A DNA stretch of 64,000 nucleotides from Limihaloglobus sulfuriphilus (lineage in GTDB: Bacteria; Planctomycetota; Phycisphaerae; Sedimentisphaerales; Sedimentisphaeraceae). Where the stretch lies: NCBI RefSeq assembly GCF_001999965.1, contig NZ_CP019646.1, positions 2,294,001-2,358,000 of the forward strand. Direction: 5' to 3'. A model generated the notes under the pieces. The model had not been told where the DNA came from, ran no database searches, and saw only the letters and a program-made list of their open reading frames with translations. A program made the position numbers and the translations under genes. Below are positions 31,594 through 50,844 of the stretch, in pieces. Within the stretch, counting starts at the first letter, position 1; each line of letters starts with the position of its first letter.

Positions 31594-34500
31594 ATGGGCA
31601 AGAAAAAAACAATAGATGGCGCAAAAGAAGCTGTTACCGGCTATGAATTCCAATTTGTCTGGACTGCAAGGCGATGCCTGTCAATGTTGAAACATAATTC
31701 TAATATCCAACAAGTTTGCGTTGAAAGCATGGCATATAAAGATGAGATAGATTTTGGTCAAGGCCCTGAAACTTTTTTAGGAGTAGATACATCCGAGTAT
31801 CATGGTGGAAAGACCTTTAGTAAGGCAAGCAAAATTATAATATCTCAATTGAAATGCGGAATAAGCAAATCAAACAAACAATGGACTATATCCCAAACAT
31901 GTCAAAAGAAGAGAAGTTTGAGATCATCGGTTATTGGACGACTATCTTCTACATTCGAAGGATATTACAAGAAGAAATCCCCAAAGGTTATCGCCCAAAA
32001 ACTTCGCTTGCAAATCGTTTCTAACCGTGGATTAAATATTAAGTCTCAAAAACTCGTATCCAAAGCACAGAACTTGCTTAATCGCAATATGGGCAAACCA
32101 AATAAGTGGCGATTTGCCAAACTAAAACAATCTGGCTTTTCTATAAATGAAAAAGCGGAGTTAGAGAAACTATACAAAGCGTCAGGTTTGGCTAGCAATG
32201 CTTTTTGTGTGTTTTTATCTTGTTTAGATTTAAGTAAATTGGGTATTGAATCTCCTATCCTACAACGGATTCATCTTGAAGAGGAAATCAAAACATTTGA
32301 CAGGGCATTTCATAATAGTGTACTGCTAAAACTGTGTGATCTGATAAGAGAATTTGTTCAAAAAGATGGTGGAACAATAACAATTGACAATGTCCTCAGT
32401 TGCTTTAATACCAACAAAGATAATTTTTTTCCTGCTCCATGTCTGATCGAATCACCTTCACTCCTTATTGAAACAGAAGATTGTCAAAGTTTAGCAAAAC
32501 TCATTGCAAATCCGGATACAAATAAATTACTAGTTCACGGGGAAGCCGGGATTGGAAAGTCTTTAACGATGAAATCCTTGCAGAAATATTTGCCTCAAGG
32601 TTCTGTCAGCGTAGTTTATGATTGCTATGCTGGTGGAAAAACGGAGACTCCGAATAAATACCGATTTCCAGATGAGGTTTTATGTACTCAACTAGTAAAT
32701 GAGTTATCTTTGTTGGTTGAACAGAATGTTTATCTTATAAGAAACCGCACTGACCAGATTGATGCTTGGAACACACTTGAATTAGCTATCAATAAAGCCG
32801 CAGAAAAACTATCCAGGCAAAATGCACTTCTTGTATTAATTGTAGACGCTGCTGATAATGCAGTCGATTCCTATGATAGAAATAAAGAAATTACTGATTT
32901 CAAAAGCTTTATTCCAAAACTCTGGAATATATCTTTACCGAAAAATGTCAAGTTAGTATACACATGCCGAACATTCAGAAAATCAAAATTAAAAGCTCCA
33001 AAAGGCATTAAAGATTTTAAATTAAAGGGTTTCACCAAAAACAATTCGACTGAATATCTTCACAACTATTTTCCACATGCTGCCCCTGAAATTGGAAGCG
33101 ATTTTCACGATAAGACATGCGGCGTACCACGACATCAAAATTATTGGCTGGAAGAATTACATAAAAAATGTAAGTCTGACGCTTTTGCTGAAATTAAAAC
33201 GACAAAAATCTTTGGTCTGACAGATTTATACAACGATTGGTTGATGTCGGCAGAAACGGTTTTACCCTCTAAAGTATCAAGTAAAAAAGTAATAAGTTTG
33301 CTAAGAGTGGCAGCTAGCCCTATTTCGATATCAGTAATTTCTAATTGCCTGGGCATAGAAGAAGAAACAGTATTAGCATTTTGTCAGGGATTGGGACCGG
33401 GGATTGTTTTAAATGACCAAAAAGAACTTCGTTTTCGAGATGAAGATTACGAAACATTTCTTGATGAAAAGCTAAAAGGCACTGACATCAAAGTTGCGCA
33501 TGACGCACTTTCGCACCATTGTTTAAGAACAATAGAATCTGATGTCTATAGCGTTAAATATGCATGTATGCATTTATTTAATGCGGAGAGACATGAGGAA
33601 TTACTTAGGATTGTCACAGGAAAATCAGGAATTAATTTTATTGATAATCCTATTGAGCAAACAGTGTGCGAACAAGATCGTATGATTTATGCATTTAAAA
33701 GTGCCGCAATTCTAAATAATTCTACAGCGGCACTACAATTATTATTTGAAGTTGGACGAATCAACAGGACAGATTATGTTTTAAGTGAAACAATGACAAG
33801 TTTTCCAGAACTAGTTATTCAACACAGTTCATATCAAACATTGGAAAATAGTTTGCAGAAAAATAATAGCCATAGCGGGAACATTTATTTTCGAATTGCA
33901 GCGGAACTCTCTAAAACCACACATAATAGAAATGTTGCAGAATCTAATTATGCAAAAGGGAAAGCATGGCTTCAGCTTCATATAACAGAAATGAAGAAAC
34001 ACGATTGGCGAGGATTTCAGTATACTATTAAGGACAGTGCAGCAGAAGCTCTTGCAGCAATGAGCCTTTATGGCATAAAGCAGGCTAAACAAGTTTTGCG
34101 TTGCTGGGTCAACTCCAATGATAGACTTCAAAGTATATATGAGTTCTTCAAACGGCTTAGTATCCAAAATGATCGCAGTTATGTATTAAAAACATTCAAC
34201 AACTTCTCATCCTCTACATTGGATATGGTTGCTGCTATTGCAGGAATGTATGAGGTTGGATACAAGCCCTCAAAAACCAAAATTGAACAACTCACTATAA
34301 AATTACAAAAATGGTTTTTAAAAAATCGCAATAATCACGATGAAATTGGACTTTGGATTATTTCATTCCTTGAATTAGCAGCCAAAGTCGGTGTTTCGAA
34401 AACAATATTATTAGATATTATCAAATATGTAAATCTACAAAACAACAATAGTATATACCGTTGGTTATCTGTAAATGAGTGGTATGACCATCACCATATG

Positions 34501-37500
34501 TTTGCTAAATTTTTGGCATTTAAAAGTACCTTGAAAAATGAAAATTTAAGAATAGAGGAATTATTCCCAAAAGACATAGAGAAATTCAATTCTAGTAGTT
34601 ATAGTAGCTCTTCAGAATATCAGAGAAGTATAAGACAAATAAAATTACTACTTCCAGTATACACATTTATATCTGAATCTTTTTTAAAGAACCGTTCAAT
34701 AAATACTATAACTAATCAGCTAAAGAAATTAATCAGCAATTGGACACAAAATAGATACAAACATTGGGATAGACATGAACCGCTATACGAAGTTTTTGTT
34801 ACGAATGCCATCAATATATTAGTCAAGACTAACGGTTCAGAACCAACATTAGTTGACCAGTTACTAGAACCCTGTAAAGATATCATAGGATATAACCCAT
34901 GTAACCTCTATTTATCAGTAGCTGACTTATTGTCACGTCGAAAAGAATACCACGATATAGCATTGGAACTTATTGGTAAAGTCAAAACTGAATGGTGTAA
35001 AAAAGATTTTCGTGCCTCAGATACTGTTCAACGACTTATGAAATGTTCAGTTATTCTAAGTCATATTGATATGGACATATCAAAGCAATACTTTGATGAT
35101 GCATTTGTTGCAGCTTCTGGGATTGATGATGATGCGTCATACTATCTCAAAAGCTTAGCGAACCTTTCAGAATATTGCTCACATCAAACACCTATAGAAG
35201 AGCGTTCTTTAGTAGCAAAAAAACTTAAAGTTGCAATTGAGCAATACTGGCCAATAATGGAAGAGGAAGAGCGTATTCCCTGGGATGAATATGTTAAAGC
35301 AATTGCCACACTCGATTCAAATATAGGCTTAAATGCAGTTTATGAAATGGACAAAAAAGGTTGGTTGGATATTACTCAAGTATCATCCAAATTTGCTTCT
35401 GGTCTTATAACAGGCAAACAGATAGATCAAATATATTCTCATGCATTTCACCAGTTCAACACTATAGACAAAAACTATTTGTGTAATTCACTAAAGGTTC
35501 TTAAAGGAATATCATCTGAGAACCCGATAATCACTACCCAATTATTCGAAAGAGTTGCCAACGATATTAGGCGAGATTCACCGATTGAAGAACGTTCATA
35601 TCTATGCAATCAACTAGCAATATGGGGCAAGTATAACAATATGCCTCCTGCTCTGATTAAGGAATTAACAAATAGTTATGTCTTTTATGAAAAAAGAGAA
35701 AACTGGATTAACACTGATCATGACAATCAAATCAAAACCGAAAAACATATTGACCTTAGTGAAAAATGGTTAATAAAGGCAAAAGCCAGAGGCTCTGATA
35801 AATTAGTCATTTTAAAAGGAATCATAGAGGACAATGATTTGTTGGGAGAGCAAATAATATCTTTAGTTGTTGAAATCAGCCAATTCATTCGAGGTAGCAA
35901 AAGAATTGCTTTTCTTAATATTCTAACCAGCCAGATTCCAGATTCATTTAGCTATTACCGAACCATATTGCCGAATATACTAAATAATCTGATCACCAAG
36001 TGGTGTGAAACCCCTGGAATATCAGAATGGGCAAAAGAAAATATCCCACTATATATAGATAACAATTTTAATGACATACTTGGCTACGACTATGATATTT
36101 CACCGCATTTCCGAGATCTGATTGAAAATCAAGTATTTTCAAACGATGAACGAACTAATGTTATACTTCCAGCTCTGGCAAATAACGCACCACAGCTATC
36201 TGCTCGATCAGCATATAAAACGGCATGTTTATTAGGACGTTATTTATCCGAAGATAAACTTGTGTCAACCCTTCAAATATTACTAAAAAAAACGCCCTCT
36301 CCAGCTGATAATCTAGAGGAAAACAACATTTCCAATTTGGCTAAATTCATTTACAAATTATTAGAACAGCCGGATAATCGTATGCGTTGGCGAGTTTTTC
36401 ATGTAGCACGGAACATGTTATACTTAAGACCAGAACCTCTACTAGCCGAGCTTGTCAATCTAACTTTCAGTAAAGAAGGTAAAATGTGGATGTCTGCACG
36501 AGAGTGGCTATTGTTTCTTTTACTCCATATTGCACACATAAACCCTAAATCGCTTCTTCACTATGCTCCAAGAATATACGAACATGCCTCTGACCCAGAT
36601 TTTCCACATGCCGGCATGCAGGAGCTCGCGAAAAGAACCTTAATGATTCTCCAAAGATTTAACGGTTCACTTTTGACAAATAAACAATTTAATTATTTAT
36701 CGCTTTTAAACGAGCCACGTCATGTGATTTGGCCGAAACAAAATAGGTATACTCGCCGTGGAAAACACCCAAATCCTGACAAAAAATGGCGTTTTTCTTT
36801 TGATACCATGGACACATTTCCATACTGGTATTCACCACTCGGGCACTGTTTCGGCCTGCATAGATGCGATGTAGCAGTACGAGCAGAGTCTTGGATATGC
36901 GACAAATGGAAAGTCACCTCAAATGACTGTATGAAATATTCGCATAAAAAAGTACGAGGAACTGATTATAATTTATTTGGACATCGACACGGATCACATC
37001 CTACAATTGAAACACTTTCAACATACATTGAACGTCATGCTATGCATATGGCAGCAGGAGAAATGATTCGTGAATTACCAATTACACCTGAACCATCTGA
37101 TGAATATGGTAGTTGGGGATATTGGATATCAAGAAATTGTTTTGATGCAGACCCTCTTGTTACCTGCGATCTACATTGTCCAGTGCCATTACACAGATTT
37201 ATGCATGGCGTCCCAGATATTGACATAAATCCAAGTGAAGCTTTAACTATGGACTTTTTTTCAGATCAACTTTATGGGCTTATTGGAAAGTGTAATACAG
37301 AATGGCTGACCATAAGTGGATATTACACTGTAAGAATCTCAAACCATTCGTTTACTATAAGTATCGAATCAGCGTTGGTCACAGCAAAAACCGCAAGAGC
37401 TTTGGGGAGAGCAATGCTGTCATCTGAATATCCCCAATCGATAGGTATTCCTGAATTTAAAATATCCTATCAACACAATGTCAGTGAAATAGAAACACAA

Positions 37501-37989
37501 CTCATAAACACTGAAAACAAAGAGTTCTTTGAGCCTATTGATTATATTTCACAAGAAGGGTTTGAGCTATCCCCTTTTACTACAGAATTTCATACTGAGC
37601 GTAGTATGCATACAATGGATCCAACAAGCAAAGGTTTGCCACGCGACTGGAGTCTCCCATCATATGACTTTATTCAAAAGGAAAGACTCAAAAGAGAACC
37701 AGATAAACTCACATACAAAACCACAAAAGGCGATATTGTTGTAAAACCTGAGTCATGGGAAGAAGGTGATTACAATGAGATGTATGATAATCGAACGACT
37801 CATGGTCACCGTCTAAATATCAAGAAAGAGCACATCTTAAGTTACCTTGAAAAAATCAATAAAGACTTGCTTATAAGGATAATAATCAGAAAACACAATG
37901 ACACTATAAAAGATCCAAAGGAATATGATCATGGCCAAGCAAAAATCTTCATCCTCCGTCAAAATGGTAAAATTGAAAAAATGGGATGA
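31594..37989 (+). CDS. Avs-like STAND ATPase with Cap4/DUF4297-like nuclease N-terminus
   Basis: A 2,131-aa protein. Residues about 10-230 look like the Cap4/DUF4297 nuclease: GYEFQFVWTARR near the start, then acidic DEIDF (near 51), VDTSEYHGG and IISQLKCG (near 83-90), the D...Q-x-K pattern of that PD-(D/E)xK group. Walker A HGEAGIGKSLTM is near 315-326 and Walker B LLVLIVDAADNAVD near 411-424; STAND sensor helices follow. The remaining 1,500 residues are helical repeats and a globular C-terminus. This matches Avs proteins, which bind phage terminase or portal proteins through the C-terminal part and then cut DNA. AAGGA lies upstream of the ATG. The type is uncertain, since the long C-terminus and small partner gene do not fit a type I can name. 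Confidence 0.82.
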   Translation: MGKKKTIDGAKEAVTGYEFQFVWTARRCLSMLKHNSNIQQVCVESMAYKDEIDFGQGPETFLGVDTSEYHGGKTFSKASKIIISQLKCGISKSNKQWTISQTCQKKRSLRSSVIGRLSSTFEGYYKKKSPKVIAQKLRLQIVSNRGLNIKSQKLVSKAQNLLNRNMGKPNKWRFAKLKQSGFSINEKAELEKLYKASGLASNAFCVFLSCLDLSKLGIESPILQRIHLEEEIKTFDRAFHNSVLLKLCDLIREFVQKDGGTITIDNVLSCFNTNKDNFFPAPCLIESPSLLIETEDCQSLAKLIANPDTNKLLVHGEAGIGKSLTMKSLQKYLPQGSVSVVYDCYAGGKTETPNKYRFPDEVLCTQLVNELSLLVEQNVYLIRNRTDQIDAWNTLELAINKAAEKLSRQNALLVLIVDAADNAVDSYDRNKEITDFKSFIPKLWNISLPKNVKLVYTCRTFRKSKLKAPKGIKDFKLKGFTKNNSTEYLHNYFPHAAPEIGSDFHDKTCGVPRHQNYWLEELHKKCKSDAFAEIKTTKIFGLTDLYNDWLMSAETVLPSKVSSKKVISLLRVAASPISISVISNCLGIEEETVLAFCQGLGPGIVLNDQKELRFRDEDYETFLDEKLKGTDIKVAHDALSHHCLRTIESDVYSVKYACMHLFNAERHEELLRIVTGKSGINFIDNPIEQTVCEQDRMIYAFKSAAILNNSTAALQLLFEVGRINRTDYVLSETMTSFPELVIQHSSYQTLENSLQKNNSHSGNIYFRIAAELSKTTHNRNVAESNYAKGKAWLQLHITEMKKHDWRGFQYTIKDSAAEALAAMSLYGIKQAKQVLRCWVNSNDRLQSIYEFFKRLSIQNDRSYVLKTFNNFSSSTLDMVAAIAGMYEVGYKPSKTKIEQLTIKLQKWFLKNRNNHDEIGLWIISFLELAAKVGVSKTILLDIIKYVNLQNNNSIYRWLSVNEWYDHHHMFAKFLAFKSTLKNENLRIEELFPKDIEKFNSSSYSSSSEYQRSIRQIKLLLPVYTFISESFLKNRSINTITNQLKKLISNWTQNRYKHWDRHEPLYEVFVTNAINILVKTNGSEPTLVDQLLEPCKDIIGYNPCNLYLSVADLLSRRKEYHDIALELIGKVKTEWCKKDFRASDTVQRLMKCSVILSHIDMDISKQYFDDAFVAASGIDDDASYYLKSLANLSEYCSHQTPIEERSLVAKKLKVAIEQYWPIMEEEERIPWDEYVKAIATLDSNIGLNAVYEMDKKGWLDITQVSSKFASGLITGKQIDQIYSHAFHQFNTIDKNYLCNSLKVLKGISSENPIITTQLFERVANDIRRDSPIEERSYLCNQLAIWGKYNNMPPALIKELTNSYVFYEKRENWINTDHDNQIKTEKHIDLSEKWLIKAKARGSDKLVILKGIIEDNDLLGEQIISLVVEISQFIRGSKRIAFLNILTSQIPDSFSYYRTILPNILNNLITKWCETPGISEWAKENIPLYIDNNFNDILGYDYDISPHFRDLIENQVFSNDERTNVILPALANNAPQLSARSAYKTACLLGRYLSEDKLVSTLQILLKKTPSPADNLEENNISNLAKFIYKLLEQPDNRMRWRVFHVARNMLYLRPEPLLAELVNLTFSKEGKMWMSAREWLLFLLLHIAHINPKSLLHYAPRIYEHASDPDFPHAGMQELAKRTLMILQRFNGSLLTNKQFNYLSLLNEPRHVIWPKQNRYTRRGKHPNPDKKWRFSFDTMDTFPYWYSPLGHCFGLHRCDVAVRAESWICDKWKVTSNDCMKYSHKKVRGTDYNLFGHRHGSHPTIETLSTYIERHAMHMAAGEMIRELPITPEPSDEYGSWGYWISRNCFDADPLVTCDLHCPVPLHRFMHGVPDIDINPSEALTMDFFSDQLYGLIGKCNTEWLTISGYYTVRISNHSFTISIESALVTAKTARALGRAMLSSEYPQSIGIPEFKISYQHNVSEIETQLINTENKEFFEPIDYISQEGFELSPFTTEFHTERSMHTMDPTSKGLPRDWSLPSYDFIQKERLKREPDKLTYKTTKGDIVVKPESWEEGDYNEMYDNRTTHGHRLNIKKEHILSYLEKINKDLLIRIIIRKHNDTIKDPKEYDHGQAKIFILRQNGKIEKMG

Positions 37990-38644
37990 AATAGCAAAAC
38001 TTGGAGAAGAAATTGTCAAAACACTTAGTATTAACCCCAACAATAGCCTTTTACAGATCTGGATGTCTCACTACATAGCAGAATTAATCGAAAAGGAAAA
38101 GACCGCCAAAAGCAAAAGGAGCCGTAATCAAATCAGAAAAGAGTGCTCTGATTTGATTACACGCTTGTGGATGATACGATATAAATATGACCCAAATGAT
38201 CCAATTTACTCCCTAGAACAAAATCTTAAAATCCTCGTCGGCAAAAACCCTTTAAAAAAAGCACTTGTAAACGCTTCAATTGAACCAAATAATATTGATG
38301 AAAATATGCAGTCAGAAGGAGGTGGTTTTGAACATCTCATAGCTTCTATTATCAAATTATCTGAAAAAGAAAAAGAGATTATTATGGCGGCCTTAACGGC
38401 AGATGTTTCTGAGGAAGAAGTACTCTCTTATTCCTCAGATAATATGCAAGATAAAAATGAATTTACATTGAACATCAAAACTCTAATCAATTACAGAGAC
38501 AGAATCCTAAATAGCGACAATATGCTCAAAGGTATTATTCAAGCTGAGTCGGATGTAGAAAGAATGGATAAAATGATTAAGGCCCTCAGCAAAACTAACA
38601 AACAAAGACAAGATATAATAAAAAAAATGAAGACTTATTCATGA
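37931..38644 (+). CDS. Small helical partner of the Avs-like ATPase
   Basis: About 237 aa from ATG 37931, which has AAAGGA eight bases upstream (an ATG at 37925 is also possible). It overlaps the 3' end of the ATPase gene by 59 bases in another frame, strong evidence for co-expression. It is soluble, charged, and probably all helical, with coiled-coil-like ends (MDKMIKALSKTNKQRQDIIKKMK). No enzyme motif or known domain is recognised. It could be a regulator, inhibitor or accessory sensor for the ATPase. Confidence 0.75.
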   Translation: MAKQKSSSSVKMVKLKKWDEIAKLGEEIVKTLSINPNNSLLQIWMSHYIAELIEKEKTAKSKRSRNQIRKECSDLITRLWMIRYKYDPNDPIYSLEQNLKILVGKNPLKKALVNASIEPNNIDENMQSEGGGFEHLIASIIKLSEKEKEIIMAALTADVSEEEVLSYSSDNMQDKNEFTLNIKTLINYRDRILNSDNMLKGIIQAESDVERMDKMIKALSKTNKQRQDIIKKMKTYS

Positions 38645-39086: not shown

Positions 39087-40145
39087 ATGTTGAATTTTAA
39101 AGCTCAACCATATTGGGGATTAGTAACTCTGACTGTATTGTGTTTAATAGCGTCTCCATCATCAATATTCGCTGACCATTATTGCAAAGACAAATTTCCT
39201 GACTGGAAGTTAGAGGGTGACAACTTTTCAACAGATTGCAGTATTCGACCTCATTATTATACTGTTTTCAGAGATTTGTATTTTTCAAGAGAGTGCCAAA
39301 ATGGCACTTGTGACTCAACTATTAACCCACACCACACCTTTGGTTTGACTGATACGGAAGACACTAGGAAACATTATAGCTTTCTAAGAATATTTGCCAA
39401 AGACTCTTATGACAGTTGTGTAGGTAATGATATCTATGATGGAGAATTACTTAGCGGTTCAGAAATGGAATACTACTGGAATCATTGTTATCTGGGATGT
39501 GTTGATTTTTACGAAGAACTACCTTATCCTAATTATTACTTTAACCTTTTTATTTGTGATCCAATTGAAGGTTTTAGTTTAATGGGCGGGTGGGACGCTG
39601 AATACGAATGCAAACTTGATGAAAATGATGATACAGTTGCAATATATAATTTTAAAGGAAAAGTAGGAGAAACCTTAGGTAATCATACAATCCATTCGAC
39701 CATTGAAGAAGAAGTAACAGTCACAGCAATCTTTGATCGTCCAGAGGCTTGCTTACCAACTCCCGAGCTTAGTAGGAGCAAATACCAAACGACAGTCAAT
39801 GTCAAATCAAAAGACGGTTCCTGCTGTCCTCTCGGTAAGACACAAACGATTATACTGAGCTGTAGTGAGGCGGATCATGTTAGAATCTTAGAGCAGCCCA
39901 CTGGAGGTGAATTATACAAGGTAAATATTTCAGAAAGCGATCTATCTCAATGTGATGAATCAGGATGTGGGGGAAACAGTGTAAAAGTTGTATTAGAACC
40001 GCTCAACAACATGGTTAAGTACGAAAAGAAAAAAACAGAAACCGCAACCCTGTCTTGCGTATTTTATGATTTTGCCGGTAATGAAATTAAATCAGGCACT
40101 GCTTCTGTAGAATTTGTGTTAACCTGTCCGCCGGAAAACAAATAA
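39087..40145 (+). CDS. Cysteine-rich secreted protein upstream of the RHS gene
   Basis: A 352-aa protein with signal peptide (hydrophobic stretch WGLVTLTVLCLIASPSSIFA) and more than 20 cysteines in the mature part, presumably disulphide-bonded outside the cytoplasm. The C-terminal 130 residues are beta-rich (SKYQTTVNVKSKDGSCCPLG). No enzyme motif is recognised. It lies 45 bp before the RHS start on the same strand, so it is likely co-expressed and may help its export or act with it at the surface. AGGA before the ATG supports the start. Confidence 0.6.
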   Translation: MLNFKAQPYWGLVTLTVLCLIASPSSIFADHYCKDKFPDWKLEGDNFSTDCSIRPHYYTVFRDLYFSRECQNGTCDSTINPHHTFGLTDTEDTRKHYSFLRIFAKDSYDSCVGNDIYDGELLSGSEMEYYWNHCYLGCVDFYEELPYPNYYFNLFICDPIEGFSLMGGWDAEYECKLDENDDTVAIYNFKGKVGETLGNHTIHSTIEEEVTVTAIFDRPEACLPTPELSRSKYQTTVNVKSKDGSCCPLGKTQTIILSCSEADHVRILEQPTGGELYKVNISESDLSQCDESGCGGNSVKVVLEPLNNMVKYEKKKTETATLSCVFYDFAGNEIKSGTASVEFVLTCPPENK

Positions 40146-40190: not shown

Positions 40191-43100
40191 ATGAAAAAAA
40201 TAATATTCTTTATTACTATATTCGCTACTCTAAACCTTTGTAACGGTGCTGAAATTTCTGTTGGCAGATTAAAGTATTCCATCGAACCCGGCACCAACCC
40301 TATAAACCAGCTCCCTTCAGCGGAAGTTTACACTGATCAGAATAACGATAAATGGGAGACTATCCGTTTTCCCGGAACTGTATATTTCTACAATGTTGAA
40401 GAGGGATATTATCCCGGTTGGAGTTCTGAGTACCAGGCTGCTTCAGACACTGTTAAAGTAACAAGCCCCAGAGGTTATATCTATATATTTGAACATAGCG
40501 ACGGAAACTCCTACCGGCTTAAAACAATAACCAATGCAAATAACGAAGTTGAAGACAGGTATGTCTATGACAGCAACGATGGACTAATATATCGTATTTA
40601 TGACGGAGATGCAACTGCAATAAATCCCTGTTATATTGAGTTTCAGTATAACACAAACAGAACTCAAATAACTTCTATAACTGCTGTTGACCAAAGTGTT
40701 TCAAGCTCTTCTGGAACCAACTATTCCCGCAGTTACACCATCAATTATGACACTAACGACAGAGTTAGCTCTATCACCAATTCCGGGGCTTCGGGGTGTG
40801 GATGCTCAGGCGGCGGCGATGATTGGATTGTTGAGGTGCTTGATGCTGATGAAAATCTTATTGAAGAACAAAACTCTGTCGGAAGCACTCTTTATACTTA
40901 TGAATACGGTACTACTCAAGGCCAGCCGGATTACAACAAGCTGATTGCCAAACGCAATGCAGACGGCAAAATGGTTATGAAGTACGAATATGAGAATCTG
41001 GCCGGCGGCGGCCGCAAAGAAAAGGTTTATGAATGTGTTGAGGCCGAGCTCGCAACAGAAACTGAACCTGAAAGCTACATATACCGCTATTCTGAAACGG
41101 TTTATGATTCAGAAGGTGCGATGGAATCAGTGAGTGTATTTAAGGAAGAAAGGGACAGCACAGATACTACACATAATTCAACAAGCTATACAACCACTTA
41201 CCTTTATGATGGCACAACTTATACTACTATACCTGATGGGGGAAGTGCTTCCGGGGAAAGAACAGTTGAAATATACAACAGTGATTATCAGCTAACTGAA
41301 AACAGGGAATATGATTCAAGCGATAACTATCGTAAGACACAAGACATATATTACTACACAAGCGGCTCAGCCGATGGTTTTGAAAAATACAACACAGATT
41401 TAAGGGAATTAAAGACTTACAGCGTATATACCGATGACAGTGGAAACCCCACTACGCTTCTCCAAAAACAATATGAAAATTACGATCCAGACAACTATAC
41501 CCAAAAAACCTACCGTAAATATGGCTATGATTCTCAAAACCGGTTGACTACCGAAACACTCAAAATTGACGATGTATCCGGCGGAGATGATTCCGCCGAC
41601 ACCACACTTCAAACACTGCACTATGAATATGACAGCTATGGCAACATAAACAAGGAATACCTGAACAATCTTTCTAACAGAAGCAACCCGGATGCTCTTG
41701 TCACCGAGTATGTTTATAACGCGTTCGGCGATCTTGTCTGGCAGATAAGCCCTGCGGGCGTTGTTACCGGCAGAGTGTATGATTCGGCTTCGCGGGTTAC
41801 TGATGAGTTTGTGCTTGCCGGCGGTATTACTACATTCAACGCATACAAAGACCCTCAAACCGGCCTTGACCCAAATCCGCTTAATTGGGATCTGGCCCTG
41901 ATAACTGTTATCAGCCAGACTAAATATGAATATCACTCACTTACCGGCAAGAGAGAGTATGTAAAGATTGCTTTATGTGATGGTTCTTTTCCGTTCGACT
42001 CACCAGACAACTGGAACATAATCCAATACGGTTACGATCTGTATGGACGTAAGACATCCGAAATTCGCGGTTACGGAGTAGATAACCTTACTACTACCTA
42101 TGCTTATAACCTCCAGGATGAAGTAGTTTTAACTACCGATCCTGCAAACAAAAAAACTCTAACGATCAGGGGCGGCCGGGGGCTTACAAAAGAAGTTCAA
42201 CTAATTGACGCAAACGACAGTCAGAACAAAATCATCACTTCTTACATCTACGACAACCGGGGCAGACTTGAGCAGACGTTAGTAAACAATACTATAATAA
42301 AGAGTTATGAGTATGACGATTACGGCAGAACTGAAAAGGAATACAACGGCAACAATGATGGCTCGGCTGCTGACTATACTCCATATCACGTTGAATACAC
42401 CTACCAGGGTGATACTGACGATGCGGCTATTGAAACTGTATGGGACGAAGATTTAACCGGTCAAACGGTTGCAGTCTCCAAGACGTTTAAGTACTATGAC
42501 ATCCTGGGTCAGGTGGTTTTTGAACAAAATTATTCAGACCCTTCAATGGCTGATTCTCTTGAGGATAGTTACACTTTTTATCAGTATGACAGCCTTGGCA
42601 ATATGATAGTTAAGGCGGGGGTTGGCGTTGGCAACTACTGCTCTGTTGATCCTTATTGGGGAATCCCGGTTTATAACTCGTCTTTCTATACAGACAATGG
42701 AGAGATTTACTCTGATTATCCGTCATCATCGCAGACAGGCGATATTATCGAATTATTCAAATATGACGGCAACGGTCTGCTCATTGGCCGCATCAAAGGA
42801 TATGCACCAAACATCTTAGATGAATTATACGATTATAACACATCAACGACACTCTATGAGGGATTATTTGAATGCAGCCTTGATGACTTTGAGACCTATA
42901 TTAACGATATAAATCCAGACCTGCACTACACTCGTTATCAATACATCAACGGCCGGCTTGATAACGAAAGCATATACACTGAACTTGTTGACAATGGTTC
43001 GGGGTCTTTTATACTGGATTTTGTTGAGACCTCGCGATACAGCTACGATACGGGCGGTCGCAGAGATACTGTTACCCGTATGGGCGGCGTTGTTTATGAA

Positions 43101-46004
43101 AAGACTCTCAACTCAGCCGGACAGGTAATCGAGCAAGTCGTTACAGACAGCGATACCACTATTCTGCGACGCGAACAGGTATATTATGATATTCTTGGTC
43201 GAAAAATACGTGAAGCAGTTTTCAAAGACCCTGACCAAACAATATTAGACCTGAGCCTGGATAAGGTAACAGACTATGAATACAATACTTGCGGCCAACT
43301 CTGTAAGAAAAAAGTCGCCACAGGAGAAACAACACTTTTCATGCAGTTCCCAATAGTTGAACTCCTTCCGATAACCGACGACACTACAATTACTTACGAT
43401 GGTTTCGGGCGCAAATATACTGTTACAGATGCTGCCGGGAATTGTGAAACACTCAACTATGACCCTGTTACCGGAAAAATTGCAACCCGAAGCAGACTTT
43501 CTGTAAGCGAGATTACAGGCGTAAATGATGTTACTGTAGTTGAAGCATTCGGTTATGACCCGGCATCCCGCCTGATAAGCAAGGCAGAGACAGGCTTTAC
43601 AGGGACTGCAACCTATGCTTACCATGGAGGCAATCTTGTCAGGGAAACTCTCTTTGACGGGACGGTAAACGAATACATCTATGACGGGTTTGGCAATATG
43701 ATTGAAGCTATAAAAGATGTTGATATGGGAGTGCAGGGCAAAACATACGTAGAACAATACACCGATTGGAATTATGACAGGCTTGGCAGGCAATACGAGA
43801 TTACAGCCTACACAGACGGTAATTCTACTGCCAACGCTGAAACAACAACCTACACGTACGATTATATGGATAATATTACGCAGGTTGAATATGATGACGG
43901 CAGCGGTATCCGTTATTACTACAACAAGTTGGGCAATACAGAGGTCAGGGTTGTGCTCGATGATGTCAGCGACCCGGACTCTGACGGCGTTGAGACCGAA
44001 TACAGCTACGATGCCGGGGGGTTCCTTGCCGAGAAGAACAATATTGATTATGCTCTTCCGCAAGACCCCGAAGACCCACTTATCCGTGAATCGCGTCCAT
44101 GGTGTGTTTACGGCCATGACGGGCTTGGCAGGCTCGTCAGTACATGGCTGCTCGATACCGGTGGTCAGCAGATGGACTTTTCGCTGTATCAGTGCGGATA
44201 TGACGGTCTTGGCAATGTTGAATGGACACAGGACGGTTTCTGGAGCGGGGCCGGTGTGAGTTATGAGTATTACAGCGATGGCCGGTTGAAATCTGTTACC
44301 GGGCCTTCGGGGCTTACGACATACTACAATCGTGACGAGATTGGCCGCGTCGTCAGCATTGAAGACAACTCCAATCTGCTTACCCAGTACGGCTATGTCG
44401 GCGGCAGGGTCGTTGATACGTACCTGGGCGAGAGCGGGTTTATGGCTGCCGGCAGTATTGACGCCCGCGGGCGTATCGGTCAGGAGGCCGTTTACGATAC
44501 TGTAAGTCAACAGAACGTATGGGTGAATGCATACACCTATCAGCCCCAGACCGACAGGCTTTCGAGCAAGACGATTGGAAGTGATGTTGACAGCTACGGT
44601 TATGATGACCTTGGGCGGCTGGAGAGCTATGATTCCGAGATATTCGGTATCAACAATATCAGCTACTCACTCAACGATATCGGCGAAGAGACGGCAGCGC
44701 CGTCTGATAATTATGTTTACGGGCTTGACGGCGAGGGCCGCGTAAAACGTGTCGGGTTATCTACTTCTGATACCAACAGCAACGGCATATTGGACGAGAG
44801 CGAGGCTGCTTTTGCTCTCTATACCTATGACTCGCTTGGCCGGCGGATAAAGAAGGCGGTGGACGTTGATGACGGCTCCGGTGGCACAGAAACCTTGACT
44901 ACGTGGTTTGTGTATGATATGATTGGCAACGTGATAACAGAATGTAAAGAGTCTGATACCGGCAGTGTGAGCTGGAGCCATGAGTACGTTTACTCTGACG
45001 ACTCGCGGGCGGTGTATATGCGCAGGCCGCGGACGAAGACTAACCCGGACTGGGCCGATTATGACAACTTCATTTCTACTGGCCTCTACGATTTTGCGGA
45101 GGCGTGGCTTTGTTATCCCTCGTGCAGTCAGACGGTTCTAACGGCGTGGGATTCTAATTCAGACGACCGCGTTGACTTTGAGGACCTTGGGGCGGTACTG
45201 TCAGATATTGACGGCGACTGGGAAGAAAACAGCCGCCTTCTCGCAACTGACTACCGCGGCAGCGTCATCGGCATTGTAACCGCCGACCAAACTGCGATAG
45301 AGCCAATCTACTACGATGCCTGGGGGAATTCAGTAATTCAGACAGGCACAGACCTCGACGGGCTTAATGTCCTCTGGAACGGCTACTACTCTGATGCCGA
45401 TACGGGGAATTACTATCTCAAAAACAGATATTACTCGCCGGTCGAGAGGAAATTCCTGACAGAAGATCCCCACGGCGTTAATCCCGATGGAAACTGGAAT
45501 AACAGGTTCAGTATTTTAAACCAATATGCCGATGGTGCAGGTTTAGATGTTTACGCTGGGCATGACCCGGTCAATGGTAGGGATGATTGGGGGTTGGCTT
45601 GTGGTGTTGTCGTGAAACGAACAACATCAAGAGGTAGCACAGGTGAAAACAGAGGTCATGAGTGGATTTCATGGCAAGGAGGTTCAATAAGCTTTTGGCC
45701 CAACGGGGCAGGACAACCAGGTAAAGAATGGTCCGTTTTCTCTCCAGATCCATTAGATGGGCACTTTTTGTATACGACTCTTTGGTCCACTAAGCAACGT
45801 AAAAGGGGAAATCTTAGATGGGGGGGAGGAAAAGGCACATCGTGCAAGTGTGCAACCTGCAAAGATATAGTTTCTTGTGTGAGTTCATCCCCTGATCCGG
45901 GTTGGCAAAGTTTTTCTATGATAAATAACTGTCGAAGATATACTCGTAGAACAATAAAAGGTTGTTGTTTAAAACGTGAATTTATATTTATGGGAGGTTG
46001 GTAA
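40191..46004 (+). CDS. RHS/YD-repeat secreted protein with variable C-terminal tip
   Basis: About 1,937 aa from ATG 40191, giving signal peptide MKKIIFFITIFATLNLCNGA. The bulk is YD repeats (YEYDSYGN, YGYDLYGRKT, YEYDDYGRTE and many more) that build the RHS cocoon. Two EF-hand-like loops are inserted late: DTNSNGILDESE and DSNSDDRVDFED. The RHS core motif is ...RYYSPVERKFLTEDPHG near residue 1,750, then DPVNGRDDWGL. The last 135 residues are a variable tip of toxin type with a GHEWISW block, a CATCKD pair and a final NNCRRYTRR segment. RHS tips are usually released toxins. The next gene is a lipoprotein in the immunity position. Surface or secreted; a glue role is the alternative. Confidence 0.88.
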   Translation: MKKIIFFITIFATLNLCNGAEISVGRLKYSIEPGTNPINQLPSAEVYTDQNNDKWETIRFPGTVYFYNVEEGYYPGWSSEYQAASDTVKVTSPRGYIYIFEHSDGNSYRLKTITNANNEVEDRYVYDSNDGLIYRIYDGDATAINPCYIEFQYNTNRTQITSITAVDQSVSSSSGTNYSRSYTINYDTNDRVSSITNSGASGCGCSGGGDDWIVEVLDADENLIEEQNSVGSTLYTYEYGTTQGQPDYNKLIAKRNADGKMVMKYEYENLAGGGRKEKVYECVEAELATETEPESYIYRYSETVYDSEGAMESVSVFKEERDSTDTTHNSTSYTTTYLYDGTTYTTIPDGGSASGERTVEIYNSDYQLTENREYDSSDNYRKTQDIYYYTSGSADGFEKYNTDLRELKTYSVYTDDSGNPTTLLQKQYENYDPDNYTQKTYRKYGYDSQNRLTTETLKIDDVSGGDDSADTTLQTLHYEYDSYGNINKEYLNNLSNRSNPDALVTEYVYNAFGDLVWQISPAGVVTGRVYDSASRVTDEFVLAGGITTFNAYKDPQTGLDPNPLNWDLALITVISQTKYEYHSLTGKREYVKIALCDGSFPFDSPDNWNIIQYGYDLYGRKTSEIRGYGVDNLTTTYAYNLQDEVVLTTDPANKKTLTIRGGRGLTKEVQLIDANDSQNKIITSYIYDNRGRLEQTLVNNTIIKSYEYDDYGRTEKEYNGNNDGSAADYTPYHVEYTYQGDTDDAAIETVWDEDLTGQTVAVSKTFKYYDILGQVVFEQNYSDPSMADSLEDSYTFYQYDSLGNMIVKAGVGVGNYCSVDPYWGIPVYNSSFYTDNGEIYSDYPSSSQTGDIIELFKYDGNGLLIGRIKGYAPNILDELYDYNTSTTLYEGLFECSLDDFETYINDINPDLHYTRYQYINGRLDNESIYTELVDNGSGSFILDFVETSRYSYDTGGRRDTVTRMGGVVYEKTLNSAGQVIEQVVTDSDTTILRREQVYYDILGRKIREAVFKDPDQTILDLSLDKVTDYEYNTCGQLCKKKVATGETTLFMQFPIVELLPITDDTTITYDGFGRKYTVTDAAGNCETLNYDPVTGKIATRSRLSVSEITGVNDVTVVEAFGYDPASRLISKAETGFTGTATYAYHGGNLVRETLFDGTVNEYIYDGFGNMIEAIKDVDMGVQGKTYVEQYTDWNYDRLGRQYEITAYTDGNSTANAETTTYTYDYMDNITQVEYDDGSGIRYYYNKLGNTEVRVVLDDVSDPDSDGVETEYSYDAGGFLAEKNNIDYALPQDPEDPLIRESRPWCVYGHDGLGRLVSTWLLDTGGQQMDFSLYQCGYDGLGNVEWTQDGFWSGAGVSYEYYSDGRLKSVTGPSGLTTYYNRDEIGRVVSIEDNSNLLTQYGYVGGRVVDTYLGESGFMAAGSIDARGRIGQEAVYDTVSQQNVWVNAYTYQPQTDRLSSKTIGSDVDSYGYDDLGRLESYDSEIFGINNISYSLNDIGEETAAPSDNYVYGLDGEGRVKRVGLSTSDTNSNGILDESEAAFALYTYDSLGRRIKKAVDVDDGSGGTETLTTWFVYDMIGNVITECKESDTGSVSWSHEYVYSDDSRAVYMRRPRTKTNPDWADYDNFISTGLYDFAEAWLCYPSCSQTVLTAWDSNSDDRVDFEDLGAVLSDIDGDWEENSRLLATDYRGSVIGIVTADQTAIEPIYYDAWGNSVIQTGTDLDGLNVLWNGYYSDADTGNYYLKNRYYSPVERKFLTEDPHGVNPDGNWNNRFSILNQYADGAGLDVYAGHDPVNGRDDWGLACGVVVKRTTSRGSTGENRGHEWISWQGGSISFWPNGAGQPGKEWSVFSPDPLDGHFLYTTLWSTKQRKRGNLRWGGGKGTSCKCATCKDIVSCVSSSPDPGWQSFSMINNCRRYTRRTIKGCCLKREFIFMGGW

Positions 46005-46006
46005 GA

Positions 46007-46477
46007 ATGAAAACACTTATTTTGTCTATAATAAGTCTATTTTCCTTTTTATTTCATGGATGCTATGAAAATAGTGATCTATACGGTAATACGAATATAG
46101 TATTTAAATGTGAAGGAAATCGTGTTCTATTAAACTTGGAACAGCAACAAAAACAAAGTGGGAATTCTACCATTATTACTGATTATATGGTAATTAAGGA
46201 AAGTTTGATTTTGTATAAAGATCGTTCGTATGAATGGGATTTTACAACAGAAAAATTAGGCAAAAAATCTTATAAAGGTATTCTACCTATACATGATTTT
46301 TCAATGTTAGTTGATTTACTTGATAAATCAGATTTTAAGAAAGAAAATGGCTTTTTGATCTATAGACATAATATGAAAGATAGTTCCCAATTTCTTCCAA
46401 AAAGTATAGCGATTCTGTGTAAATACATATATGACCAGCATATTGTTTCTGAATCTGCGAATTTGGCCGGCGGATAA
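46007..46477 (+). CDS. Lipoprotein in immunity position, 3' end replaced by RHS-like DNA
   Basis: About 156 aa from ATG 46007, preceded by GGAGG at a good distance just after the RHS stop. Lipobox FLFHGC (Cys near residue 19). The mature part has no known domain. Position directly after a variable RHS tip suggests an immunity protein acting in the periplasm. From about 46463 the DNA is a copy of the RHS gene (see 44836), so the last residues (NLAGG) come from that copy and the original end is probably lost. Whether the shortened protein works is unknown. Confidence 0.6.
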   Translation: MKTLILSIISLFSFLFHGCYENSDLYGNTNIVFKCEGNRVLLNLEQQQKQSGNSTIITDYMVIKESLILYKDRSYEWDFTTEKLGKKSYKGILPIHDFSMLVDLLDKSDFKKENGFLIYRHNMKDSSQFLPKSIAILCKYIYDQHIVSESANLAGG

Positions 46478-47472
46478 AGAAGGCGGTGGACGTTGATGAC
46501 GGCTCCGGCGGCACAGAAACCTTGACTACGTGGTTTGTGTATGATATGATGGGCAACGTGATAACAGAATGTGAACAGACAGATACCGGCAGTATTGGCT
46601 GGACTCGTGAGTACGTTTACTCTGACGGCTCGCGGGCGGTTTATATGCGCAGGCCGCATGTGCTGGGGCCGATTGCCGACTGGAACGGGTATGTCTCGTT
46701 TATCAGCAGCGGTATCGAGGATTTCGCCGCGGCCTGGCTGTGTGATTCGAGTTGTGAGCCGGCCGTTCTAACGGCGTGGGATCTCAACGATGACGGCTAT
46801 ATCGACCTGACAGATTTCGGCATGGAGGTTGCAAGTTTCAGCGGTGCATGGCAAAGCGAAAGCCGCCTGCTCGCAACCGACTACCGCGGCAGCGTCATCG
46901 GCATTGTAACCGCCGACCAGACAGCGATAGAGCCGATCCACTATGACGCCTGGGGAAATTCAGTAATCAACACAGGCACTGACCTCGACGGGCTTAGTAT
47001 TCTCTGGAACGGATACTACCACGACTATGAGACGGGGAACTACTACCTCAAGAACAGATACTATTCTCCAGTTGAAAGAAGGTTCATAACAGATGACCCG
47101 CATGGTGTTAATCCAGATGGAAATTGGAACAATCAATTTAACATCCTAAAACAATACGTGGATGGCTTTGGTTTAGACGTTTACGCTAATCATGACCCTG
47201 TAAATGGTTTTGACCCGTGGGGATTGCTTGATGGCAATGAATATCTTAAGTGTACAGATAAATGTGACGAAAAGCTCAAATCATACCCACTTAAAACAGC
47301 AATTGATGCTTGTCATACGTGTTGCATGTTGTTTGCTTTTAATAGTAAAGTTGCTACATCAGAAGAAGCTGGGGCTTTCTGTGTGCAAAGCTCTATGCAG
47401 TGTCACAAACCTTTCAAGAAGACTAGATGGAAATGGTGGTATAAACTGATAGGATGGCTAACTGGAAAATGA
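46463..47472 (+). pseudogene. Displaced RHS C-terminal cassette with a different tip
   Basis: Begins abruptly with sequence nearly identical to 44836 onward (TTGGCCGGCGGATAAAGAAG...) and encodes the same last YD/EF-hand/core region (RYYSPVERRFITDDPHG, EF-hand DLNDDGYIDLTDF), then DPVNGFDPWGL and an unrelated tip of about 82 aa with several cysteines (CTDKCDEKL, CHTCCML) and a basic, Trp-rich end. There is no ATG, signal peptide or ribosome site; a GTG at 46486 is the first possible start. This is the layout of orphan RHS tips, which become expressed by recombination into the main gene. Confidence 0.85.
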
Positions 47473-47500
47473 ACTAGTAAACTCATAAGGGTATATAACT

Positions 47501-47986
47501 ATGCGAAAAATTTTAATTTTCTCTATATTATGTGTGTTATTTGCCGTGCAGAGCTGCAAAGAAAATAGACTTATAAATCTTCGAAAAGAGTTGCTAATAG
47601 ACGATGATAATTACATCAGATTGTATATTCAATCTTTCAATGATATGGAAGCTAATCTAAAGCGGCAAGAAGAAATCAAATATGAGATAAAGGGCAAATT
47701 GTCTGGAAAAAAATTTAGTAAGATTTATCAAGGCATCAGCATTGCAGATTTTCAGATGTGGAATGACAAAATTGTACTTTTTTCACTAAACGGTTTTCTG
47801 TTGTATAATCCGTTTACCAATCAAGATGAATGGATATATAAGAATGAACATACTTTCATACGTCATCCTCTTGTAGAAATTGACGACGACACCGGCAATA
47901 TATACGCTTTTTGCAGCCTTTACCCTGAAATGAATAAAATATTGTTGGCTATTAATATACACAAAAAAACAGCTTCCACATTGTAG
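47501..47986 (+). CDS. Lipoprotein, likely immunity protein of the displaced RHS tip
   Basis: A 161-aa protein with a signal segment and lipobox AVQSC (Cys near residue 19). It begins 28 bases after the orphan tip. The mature part looks beta-rich (FSLNGFLLYNPFTNQDEWIYK), reminiscent of a small propeller blade set, without a family that I can name. The repeated pattern tip-lipoprotein, tip-lipoprotein in this locus argues for immunity, but this is inference. Confidence 0.6.
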   Translation: MRKILIFSILCVLFAVQSCKENRLINLRKELLIDDDNYIRLYIQSFNDMEANLKRQEEIKYEIKGKLSGKKFSKIYQGISIADFQMWNDKIVLFSLNGFLLYNPFTNQDEWIYKNEHTFIRHPLVEIDDDTGNIYAFCSLYPEMNKILLAINIHKKTASTL

Positions 47987-49385
47987 TTGTCAACCGTAAG
48001 TCGAACACCCGTAAATTGTCATTTTTGCTTTGATTTGCTCTTTCATAAGTTAATAGAGTGACGGATATTCATGGCTCAATGAAATCATCGTAAGACGACA
48101 GCTACTCAAAAGGCCCTTTTAATTGCCATATTTCAGTGTCAGGGCGTACATTCCCCGCAATCATTAGTATTACCAATGAATTTAAACGAGATTAACCGGC
48201 GGATTTCAAACGGTAGCCTGTTACTCGGGTCTGGCTGAAATATCGTCTTTCAATATTTGCCGGAACCGTCTTGGCATCACGTGCCGGTGCTTCAGGCAAG
48301 TTGCCGAAGAATACATCATCCGGACGCTTGCCGTCTAATGACATATGCGGCCGCCAGGTATTGTACCAAAGCTGGAATTTATCACAAAGCTCTTGTAAAT
48401 GATCAATCCCTCTTATGATCGGAACCCGATTGAGCCATTCTGATTTTAGTGTTCTATTAACTCTTTCAGTTACCGCAATTGAACCGTGCTTACCTATGGC
48501 ACCAAGCCTATGCTTAATATTATAGTGCCGCAGACATTCAGCGAACGCCTCAGATATAAATACACTTCCCTGATCAGATATGAGATGCTTTGGCGAACCA
48601 TATTTATCAATCGCCTCGTCCATGATATTGATAACCCAACCTGCATTGGGCCCCTCCAATGGGGCAGCAGCGACAACCTTACGGGAGAAGTGATCAATGA
48701 TAACACATACATGCACGGCGAACAGTCCCCACTTGCGAACCACGGTAGTATCTATTGACCAGACATGGTTTGGATACCATGCCGGTATCTGCCGAGCCTC
48801 TGGCTTATCTATCTTCTTCTTTGAAGACATCTTTGGCCGGTTCTTCGGTTCCGGCCTGTTGAGTATATTGCGAGAAGTTGAAGCCGCCAGGAATATCCCA
48901 AGCAATTTAAGTTGGTTGGCAATTCTATGCCGTCCCCAGCCAGTATTAGCTCTTGCAATCTCCCAGACAAGGGAAACAACATCATCAGGTGTCTTGTTCG
49001 CCGGCACATGATTCTTGCTTTTCTCTTCAATTCGTTTAAGCCAGCGATAATAAGTTGATTTGGCAACTCCAAGATGCTTCGATATTTTATTTCTCGCTAT
49101 CTGGTAATTCTCCATGTAGAAAATAACATACAATTTCTCACGCAGAGAATATCGTTTGCCTTGTGGTTCTTTAGAATTAGCTTTCAGCAGAATAGAGTTC
49201 TGCATTTGAAGCTGTTCAACCTTATTACGCAGAAACAAAATCTCCTTATCCTTTTCATCAACATTCATCCGGGCAAGCCTTTTAAGGCTTTTCTTGCGAA
49301 TACGCCCCGAAAAGCCGGCAGCAATCACAACCGCTTTTAATATCAAACCACCAGCATAGTTGACAATCTCAAAATTAGAATTCAT
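47987..49385 (-). mobile_element. IS3/IS481-like element (borders approximate)
   Basis: One DDE transposase gene plus 205 bp of downstream non-coding sequence that starts GTTGTCAACCGTAAGTCGAACACC. The same non-coding end recurs at 60,823-61,083 with the last codons of the transposase. The right border is not defined; no clear inverted repeat was found upstream of the gene. Confidence 0.6.
48192..49385 (-). CDS. IS3/IS481-type DDE transposase
   Basis: A 397-aa single-frame transposase. The helix-turn-helix SKHLGVAKSTYYRWLKRI lies near residue 105; a coiled-coil/leucine-rich segment precedes it (DKEILFLRNKVEQLQMQN). The rve core has Asp in VWSIDTTVV near 210, Asp in LISDQGSVF near 272 and Glu in AVTERVNRTLKSEW near 308, followed by WYNTWRPHMSLDGKRP. 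This is the OrfB type of integrase domain, fused with its HTH in one frame, so no programmed frameshift is needed. Confidence 0.9.
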   Translation of the reverse strand: MNSNFEIVNYAGGLILKAVVIAAGFSGRIRKKSLKRLARMNVDEKDKEILFLRNKVEQLQMQNSILLKANSKEPQGKRYSLREKLYVIFYMENYQIARNKISKHLGVAKSTYYRWLKRIEEKSKNHVPANKTPDDVVSLVWEIARANTGWGRHRIANQLKLLGIFLAASTSRNILNRPEPKNRPKMSSKKKIDKPEARQIPAWYPNHVWSIDTTVVRKWGLFAVHVCVIIDHFSRKVVAAAPLEGPNAGWVINIMDEAIDKYGSPKHLISDQGSVFISEAFAECLRHYNIKHRLGAIGKHGSIAVTERVNRTLKSEWLNRVPIIRGIDHLQELCDKFQLWYNTWRPHMSLDGKRPDDVFFGNLPEAPARDAKTVPANIERRYFSQTRVTGYRLKSAG

Positions 49386-49510
49386 GGCCTTTCCTGATAC
49401 ATTGTATAAATGGTTACATTATAATCATTTATCGTTTTCTGTCTAAACTTGCAAAATTTTTGATATTTCATATAATAGCTGATAATTTATGATTATAAAT
49501 AGGAACAAAT

Positions 49511-50272
49511 ATGCTGAAATTTCCCGGAGGAAATAATAAACATAAGGCTCAAGAGCTTGTATATGAAGCAATGGATTGCATTTACCATGATGAGGACAAA
49601 GCATTGGGACTATGTCGTAAAGCCTTGAAACTTTACCCGAACTGTATTGATGCCCTTGTTATGATAGCAGAGGTTGAATGTCAGACCATTGCCGCATATG
49701 CAAATGCCATGGAAAAGGCTGTAGAAGCCGGTCGCAGTGAACTTGGGGCTAAATGCTTCAAAGAAGACAAGGGATATTTCTGGGGACTGTTGGAGACACG
49801 TCCGTTTATGCGTGCAATGATGCAGCTCGCAACAAGTTACAAGCTTATGGGTAAACGATATTTAAGTAAGGCCATTGCCATTTTTGAAGAGATGCTTGAA
49901 CTGAACCCCAATGATAATCAAGGAGTCAGAGACATATTGGTCGATTGCTATCTTGCAGATAAATCGTACGATAAAGCCGGCAAACTTATCAAGCAATACG
50001 AAGAAAATTCATTAGCAGTATTCAACTGGGCACGGGTTCTTTTAGCTTATGCAACAGAAGGAAAAGAAGCTGCTGATAAAGAATTCAAATCTGCAAAGAA
50101 ACAAAATGAATACGTAGCCAGATATTTAAGCGGCAAAAAACGGGTTCCCAAGGAAGAACCTCAATATTACTCTCCCGGCGATGTATCTGAGGCCATCTAT
50201 TGTTGCAGGGTTTTGAAAGAGGCGTGGAAAAGTCACCCTGAAGCTAAACTCTGGTTAAAATCAAAATGTTAG
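49511..50272 (+). CDS. TPR-repeat protein (ST7-like)
   Basis: A 253-aa soluble protein of tetratricopeptide type. Helical repeats are visible at residues 10-50 (HKAQELVYEAMDCIYHD, then ALGLCRKALKLYPNCIDALV) and 105-170 (AIAIFEEMLELNPNDNQGVRDILVDCYL). It resembles the ST7/TPR family found in many bacteria. AGGAAC stands seven bases upstream of the ATG. It lies between an IS3/IS481-like gene and a tRNA-like fragment, and the second copy of this unit at 60.8 kb lacks it, so it may be a passenger of the unit. Role: protein-protein adaptor; partner unknown. Confidence 0.72.
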   Translation: MLKFPGGNNKHKAQELVYEAMDCIYHDEDKALGLCRKALKLYPNCIDALVMIAEVECQTIAAYANAMEKAVEAGRSELGAKCFKEDKGYFWGLLETRPFMRAMMQLATSYKLMGKRYLSKAIAIFEEMLELNPNDNQGVRDILVDCYLADKSYDKAGKLIKQYEENSLAVFNWARVLLAYATEGKEAADKEFKSAKKQNEYVARYLSGKKRVPKEEPQYYSPGDVSEAIYCCRVLKEAWKSHPEAKLWLKSKC

Positions 50273-50432
50273 GGGTGGCACCGCAAAATAACCGGTGTCA
50301 CTTTGGTGTCACTCTCCAGTGTGTCCCGACTGTACTTTGAGTGAGTATTAGAGTGTATCCTGACTGTACTGCCAGATTTTAAGCCAAAACACGACTATAA
50401 ACCCTTATTTAACAATGACTTACAACCTATCC

Positions 50433-50480
50433 AAGGGACTGAAAATCCGTGTGTCGGCGGTTCAAATCCGCCCCTGCCCA
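50433..50480 (+). other. tRNA 3'-end-like fragment (attachment-site remnant)
   Basis: The T-arm GGCGG-TTCAAAT-CCGCC (50456-50472) is perfect and followed by CCTGCCCA, like an acceptor 3' strand plus discriminator. GGGACTGAAAATCCG upstream looks like an anticodon arm. The 5' half is missing, so it is not a functional tRNA. Such 3' fragments are left by integrases that use tRNA genes. A degraded relative lies at 61,230-61,262. Confidence 0.5.
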
Positions 50481-50844
50481 TTTCTTTTAAATCCCCATTT
50501 TTAGCATTATAAAGCGGGTTTCTTGTGTCGTTAAGGCTGTTTTTGGGGACCACTTCCAACCCCTTTGAAAGTTCGTATAAGTTCGCTTTTCCCCGCACTT
50601 GGTCGTCATTTGAGCCACAAATCTGCCCAATAGGTTCTGTATCACATGTCCCGGTAGCCTTGGCAGTTTGTTTACGGTCTGTTGTTTCAGACAATTTCGG
50701 CAGGTGCTGTAGTTGTCAAGCGGGTGTCGGACCACCTAAAATACGTTTGATGACTTAAAAATAAGGTTTTATTACTTTAAAAGTAATCTTCGATTTGGAC
50801 TTAAATGCATGCTTTTCATTCCTACATAGATAGACACTTGGCTT

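Follow-up and report, generated by a model that had tools for sequence, protein, structure and literature searches.

A displaced Rhs C-terminal cassette, probably a decaying orphan, and its relatives in Limihaloglobus sulfuriphilus and its order

Why does the 3' end of an Rhs gene occur twice in succession on the chromosome of Limihaloglobus sulfuriphilus, each time with a different C-terminal tip, and is the second copy held ready for use? The window analyzed here, 64,000 nucleotides of contig NZ_CP019646.1 (positions 2,294,001 to 2,358,000), contains a full-length Rhs gene and, behind it, a displaced copy of its core that carries another tip and is followed by another small gene. The original prediction regarded this arrangement as a ready switch of toxin and immunity. 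It is very probable that the locus has undergone a C-terminal displacement, and that the cassette beginning at 46463 is a decaying orphan relic more than a ready switch. The features on which this reading draws are given below in window coordinates.

40191..46004, plus strand: full-length Rhs/YD-repeat protein with a Sec-type signal sequence, starting at ATG 40191 (open reading frame; RHS_repeat PF05593, YD repeat, Rhs_assc_core TIGR03696)
44836..45596, plus strand: conserved 3' core of the Rhs gene, the parent copy of the repeat, ending in DDWGL (repeat and core alignment)
45597..46001, plus strand: tip 1, 135 amino acids, of a GH...C family with a weak PPPDE-like link through a relative (tip comparison, family alignment)
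46007..46477, plus strand: partner 1, membrane-targeted or lipoprotein-like, presumed immunity protein of tip 1, with a stop codon supplied by the repeat (open reading frame, homologue in relative G006)
46463..47226, plus strand: displaced core copy, lacking an ATG, with an in-frame stop upstream at 46450 (repeat, Rhs_assc_core match)
47227..47469, plus strand: tip 2, 81 amino acids, Cys-rich, with four predicted helices and no relative in 161 genomes of the order (tip comparison, genome search, model)
47501..47986, plus strand: partner 2, lipoprotein-like, cut short at the 3' end near 47982 (open reading frame, comparison with a distant copy)
47982..48245, unstranded: edge of a repeated element that truncates partner gene 2, with a second copy at 60819-61083 (96%) (repeat search)
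48192..49385, minus strand: rve-type transposase gene beside the truncated end (family match)

The full-length protein matches PF05593 of Pfam at E 3e-8, the RHS repeats lying in this copy, and the Rhs-associated core TIGR03696 of NCBIfam is matched by both copies, the full-length one at 32.6 bits (cut-off 32.5) and the displaced one at 41.7 bits. The earlier statement that the DNA from 46,463 repeats that from 44,836 almost exactly is borne out over the first 195 nt (44836-45030 vs. 46463-46657, 92.8% identity, E 5e-78), but not beyond them: a second strong tract (45231-45578 vs. 46861-47208) reaches 80.2%, the two copies align at only 47-62% between these tracts and at 68% toward the tips, and the longest exact runs they share are 46, 41, and 41 nt. 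At 46463 the junction is sharp, the DNA upstream of it being unrelated. Both tips begin directly after the last D-x-W-G-L of the core, at a boundary whose final D, W, G, and L are invariant in 12 of 12 rows of the core alignment and beyond which the tips are unlike. Hence each copy does end, as had been proposed, in a different tip followed by a gene for a small membrane-targeted protein, the arrangement of an Rhs tip cassette displaced by another. The displaced frame was also said to have no start signal, and indeed it possesses no ATG and is preceded by an in-frame TGA at 46450; a GTG at 46486, however, remains as the first possible start. A core fragment, a different tip, and a small downstream gene, together lacking an ATG and an export signal, are what is expected of an orphan cassette. 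GC content is 52% in the Rhs core vs. 27% in partner gene 1, which starts at ATG 46007 behind GGAGG, close after the Rhs stop codon (46002-46004), and ends at a stop codon (46475-46477) inside the repeat. The core also includes, at 45106-45213, a WLC-x-P-x-C stretch and a D-x-N-x-D-x-x-I-D-x-x-D run, the latter of which we take to be dockerin- or EF-hand-like; this stretch is one of the parts in which the two core copies of the window differ most.

The state of the cassette is most readily judged from partner gene 2, which recurs about 166 kb away on the same chromosome (C1:2175196, locus L064). This distant copy is 97.9% identical to the window gene over 47521-47944 and 100% over 47936-47982, and runs on for 34 C-terminal residues that the window gene is missing. 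Partner gene 2 is thus truncated: where the distant copy continues, at about 47982, the window has the start of a repeated element. The distant copy is itself broken, its 5' end being cut off and the gene split by an insertion sequence. An intact linked immunity gene is a feature of working orphans, and with 34 residues missing from partner 2 the window cassette does not have one. The genome holds a single tip 2, that of the displaced copy, so the assembly shows no recombined form. Around the truncated end, positions 47982 and 50708 share a direct repeat of 15 bases, near-identical between the two. The stretch 60819-61264 is similar to two parts of 47982-50735 but lacks the middle; 47982-50735 is possibly a mobile segment that includes the genes for the transposase and the TPR protein.

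These observations can be accommodated by the model of Jackson 2009 (PMC2935791), in which an incoming unit of core, tip, and immunity gene recombines into a resident core and shunts the old tip downstream. At the present locus, a unit consisting of a core 3' end, tip 1, and partner gene 1 would have recombined into the core of an Rhs gene formerly ending in tip 2, and tip 2 with its partner would have been pushed downstream to become the silent cassette from 46463. The 195 nt at 93% would be the segment that was duplicated, and the likely crossover would lie near 45031, where identity drops. The full-length Rhs protein would be exported by its Sec-type signal, its tip would act in the envelope of a rival cell, and the adjacent membrane-anchored protein would protect the producer. 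Tip 2 could in principle be brought back into use by recombination between the repeats, but its partner gene is now truncated. In this scheme the anatomy, the repeat, the truncation, the array in the same genome (below), and the shared inheritance of tip and partner families are observed, and toxicity, immunity, the direction and age of the displacement, and the export route are what we infer.

Whether tips and the genes behind them belong together can be asked of the relatives. The Rhs core was found at E<=1e-10 in 10 of 98 genomes, the window's own included, and at E<=1e-15 in 10 of 397 genomes of the class; among the relatives read, displaced cassettes occur in four, namely G019 (three behind the parent), G044, G025, and G006. 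For the comparison, 27 tip/partner loci were chosen by hand and similarity was called at E<0.01, with the first locus of G006 counted once, with either of its two lipoproteins. Loci in which the tip or carrier was unclear or which were not read fully were left out, namely G172, G232, the second G021 locus, L107, L109, the G025 array (L101), G078, G086, G004, and locus L016. This set yields 34 similar tip pairs and eight similar partner pairs, and all eight partner pairs fall among the similar tips, a number reached by none of 20000 label shuffles (mean 0.78, maximum 5). Two examples reach across families of the order: a tip of a second Rhs locus of the same genome (array A, below) and a G019 tip are related and so are their partners, and the same is true of a G044 tip and a G019 tip. 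The result supports the view that a tip and the gene behind it go together as a cognate pair from genome to genome, putatively as toxin and cognate immunity.

Tip 1 itself matched no family in family-model searches (Pfam among them), and neither it nor its family gave anything usable against the sequences of the PDB. Relatives of tip 1 occur in 5 of 294 genomes of the phylum, the window's own included, and a scan of named genomes with the tip-1 alignment returned two loci (Phycisphaerae bacterium; Planctomycetes bacterium GWF2_50_10) that match the known G009 and G006. A G-H pair and a later C are invariant in 7 of 7 aligned rows, and one relative matches Peptidase_C97 (PPPDE) at E 0.0027 with 18 bits, below the cut-off of 29.2. 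Because this match of a single relative is below the cut-off and stands beside the conserved G-H and C, a permuted papain-like cysteine hydrolase may be considered as a lead, not as a result. Partner 1 used alone as query finds G006 at E 1.8e-6 (2 of 161 genomes, own included), where the related lipoprotein gene sits behind a tip-1 relative; in G009, a tip-1 relative is carried by a small secreted protein, behind which lies a lipoprotein gene. Prediction from tip 2 by itself yielded a moderate model of four helices with a predicted local distance difference test score (pLDDT) of 75, which has no match in the PDB at E<=0.001 (46 at E<=10). Searches of the tips and partners against PHROGs and PADLOC returned no usable match, with one weak PHROG match of tip 2 at E 0.069.

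Where such proteins would act is suggested by the N-termini of the partners. A strong hydrophobic N-terminal segment is present in 25 of 28 partner open reading frames vs. 11 of 48 control frames of the window, the set numbering 28 as both lipoproteins of the first G006 locus were included. By eye, many of the partners resemble proteins with one or several membrane spans more than lipoproteins. Under the strict lipobox pattern, partner 2 and partners in G006, G009, and G025 qualify, and partner 1 fails for its His at -2. The earlier argument from lipoprotein immunity to a periplasmic target is supported in a broader form: the partners are mostly membrane-targeted, which would fit a target in the envelope, outside the cytoplasm. 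The Rhs proteins, again by eye, carry Sec-type signals. The VipB/TssC sheath protein of the type VI secretion system (T6SS; PF05943) was not found in the genome by a model that matches in the Escherichia coli control, and delivery by a T6SS is therefore unlikely.

If the locus were a ready switch, recombination between the repeats would delete tip 1 and its partner and express tip 2 with a working partner. Deletion of one repeat unit would preserve the reading frame, so that this part of the proposed tip swap stands, although the assembly holds no recombined form; exact runs of 46 and 41 nt are available, and switching of this kind occurs in Salmonella over 522 bp at 95% (Koskiniemi 2014, PMC3967940). 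Readiness, on the other hand, is not supported. The main evidence against it is that partner gene 2 is truncated, lipoprotein 2 lacking 34 residues and the other copy in the genome being broken at its 5' end and by an insertion sequence; moreover, the Salmonella repeat is longer and its copies more alike, and immunity to the former self would be lost with the deleted DNA. We regard a ready switch as unlikely. Simple tandem duplication of the gene end, followed by divergence and later replacement of the tips with no incoming cassettes, would account for two neighboring cores in direct orientation. It is nevertheless quite improbable, given that neither the tips nor the partners resemble each other at E<0.01, that GC content differs, and that related tips go with related partners in other families of the order.

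Two further explanations concern function. The tips might be structural ends and the following genes envelope proteins, a view with which the missing toxin family match agrees; a complete change of tip at a fixed boundary beside a conserved core, the co-inheritance of tip and partner families, and the invariant G-H and C retained by the tip-1 family make it very improbable. Hardly more credible is translation of the displaced frame from GTG 46486, a few bases behind AAGAAGG, to yield a toxin-antitoxin module working inside the cell, for which a report on Salmonella Rhs (PMC7043789) provides a precedent; the partner is membrane-targeted, not cytoplasmic, and the abundance of Cys in tip 2 would suit a protein that acts outside the cytoplasm. 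Displacement with subsequent decay of the orphan is left as the best explanation, and several points count against it. The family searches gave no usable match for either tip itself, toxicity thus being presumed, and the structure prediction of tip 1 from three sequences gave a pLDDT of 33 and no usable fold. Tip 2 is the one that has no relative in the order set, and its pairing with lipoprotein 2 is putative. As many as 26 of the 34 similar tip pairs show no detectable partner similarity, and therefore partners diverge faster or are not always kept. Finally, the eight partner pairs, from loci picked by hand, are not independent, three loci of one genome representing one family.

The displaced orphan Rhs cassette is a kind already described (Jackson 2009), and the switch mechanism has been published for Salmonella (PMC3967940). 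Enterobacterial rhs loci with dissociated tips (PMC2935791) likewise have a full-length gene followed by core fragments with other tips and a GC-poor downstream region, and displacement by recombination was proposed for them. They differ from the present locus, which has a Sec-type signal, no T6SS sheath gene found, and mostly membrane-anchored partners, and in which the core ends in D-x-W-G-L vs. DPxG. The main and orphan tips of Salmonella Typhimurium LT2 rhs (PMC3967940), one of each with a linked small gene, also share a direct repeat of the core and an orphan that lacks an export signal. There, however, the repeat is 522 bp at 95% vs. 195 nt at 93% here, and switching was observed, whereas here the orphan's partner gene is truncated and no switched form was observed. 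The nearest Sec-exported parallel is MafB of Neisseria (PMC4287609), a toxin with displaced C-terminal cassettes each accompanied by an immunity gene (MafI), in which near-identical cassettes have identical or near-identical immunity genes; MafB lacks repeat domains, and the parallel drawn here is one of arrangement. More generally, polymorphic toxin systems (Zhang 2012, PMC3482391) combine a constant carrier with an exchangeable C-terminal cassette of toxin and immunity gene, and planctomycetes are listed among their hosts; PPPDE and LRAT have no occurrence in the portion of that survey searched. The present locus extends the known range of displaced tip cassettes: here the Rhs proteins are putatively Sec-exported, the partners are mainly membrane-anchored, and no T6SS sheath gene was detected in the genome. 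The clear tip/partner pairs can serve as candidates for envelope-targeting toxins.

The window locus is one of several in this genome, a single contig of 3,868,357 bases with 11 core matches. A second Rhs locus, array A (L012/L013; C1:1401586-1421199, minus strand), has a gene for 2580 amino acids with a signal-like N-terminus, three displaced cassettes behind it, and at the end a remnant about 45 nt long. Transposon genes of the IS21 and IS66 types interrupt two of the three displaced cassettes. Further core fragments lie at 391, 1606, and 2824 kb. Five displaced cores (array A and L014:7211) begin within about 5 nt of one codon of the parent core, the preceding DNA being unrelated; we do not claim a fixed recombination site or a site-specific mechanism, as the window junction and three G019 junctions lie elsewhere. 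Nine junctions from two genomes are located -14 to +80 nt from the stop codon of the preceding partner gene. Near two of the fragments there are long direct repeats, one of 998 bp at 99.3% (L014:3062-5052), which takes in the 3' end of a gene for a secreted protein, situated immediately ahead of a lone Rhs fragment, and one of 1.9 kb at 98.5% (L016:1-10001), which adjoins the Rhs fragment at 1.60 Mb.

Directly upstream of the window Rhs gene lies another candidate carrier, with no match in Pfam or NCBIfam.

39087..40145, plus strand: secreted Cys-rich protein, 352 amino acids, tipless here (open reading frame, G019 homologue)

In G019 its homologue (33%, E 5e-17) likewise precedes the Rhs gene and continues into a tip of the tip-1 family, behind which are membrane-protein genes; in the alignment, the window protein ends where the G019 tip starts. 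The G019 carrier has a displaced cassette of its own, marked by a 145-bp repeat at 97.2%, and the tip of this cassette begins with an Rhs-like D-x-W-G-L boundary. At carrier level the match is confined to 2 of 161 genomes of the order, and to the window's own among 372 of the phylum (1/372), such that the findings on the second carrier come from two genomes; with the tip part only, the query finds four further genomes and one further place in its own genome. It is conceivable, if somewhat less than evenly probable, that one pool of cassettes, each a tip with its membrane immunity protein, is shared in the order by two unrelated Sec-exported carriers, the Rhs type and the 39087-40145 type, and that the latter also undergoes C-terminal displacement. 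As no T6SS sheath gene was found, delivery under such sharing must use another route. The data suggest that the same tips have another carrier besides the Rhs proteins, one that is undescribed and nameless, so that no search of the literature by name was made, and the wider array system together with this carrier is of more interest than the proposed switch.

An anti-phage defense pair adjoins the Rhs locus directly upstream, consisting of an Avs3a-like gene (31594-37989, E 2.5e-115), whose large product matches NACHT and Cap4-nuclease, and an Avs3b-like gene (37925-38644, E 7.5e-12).

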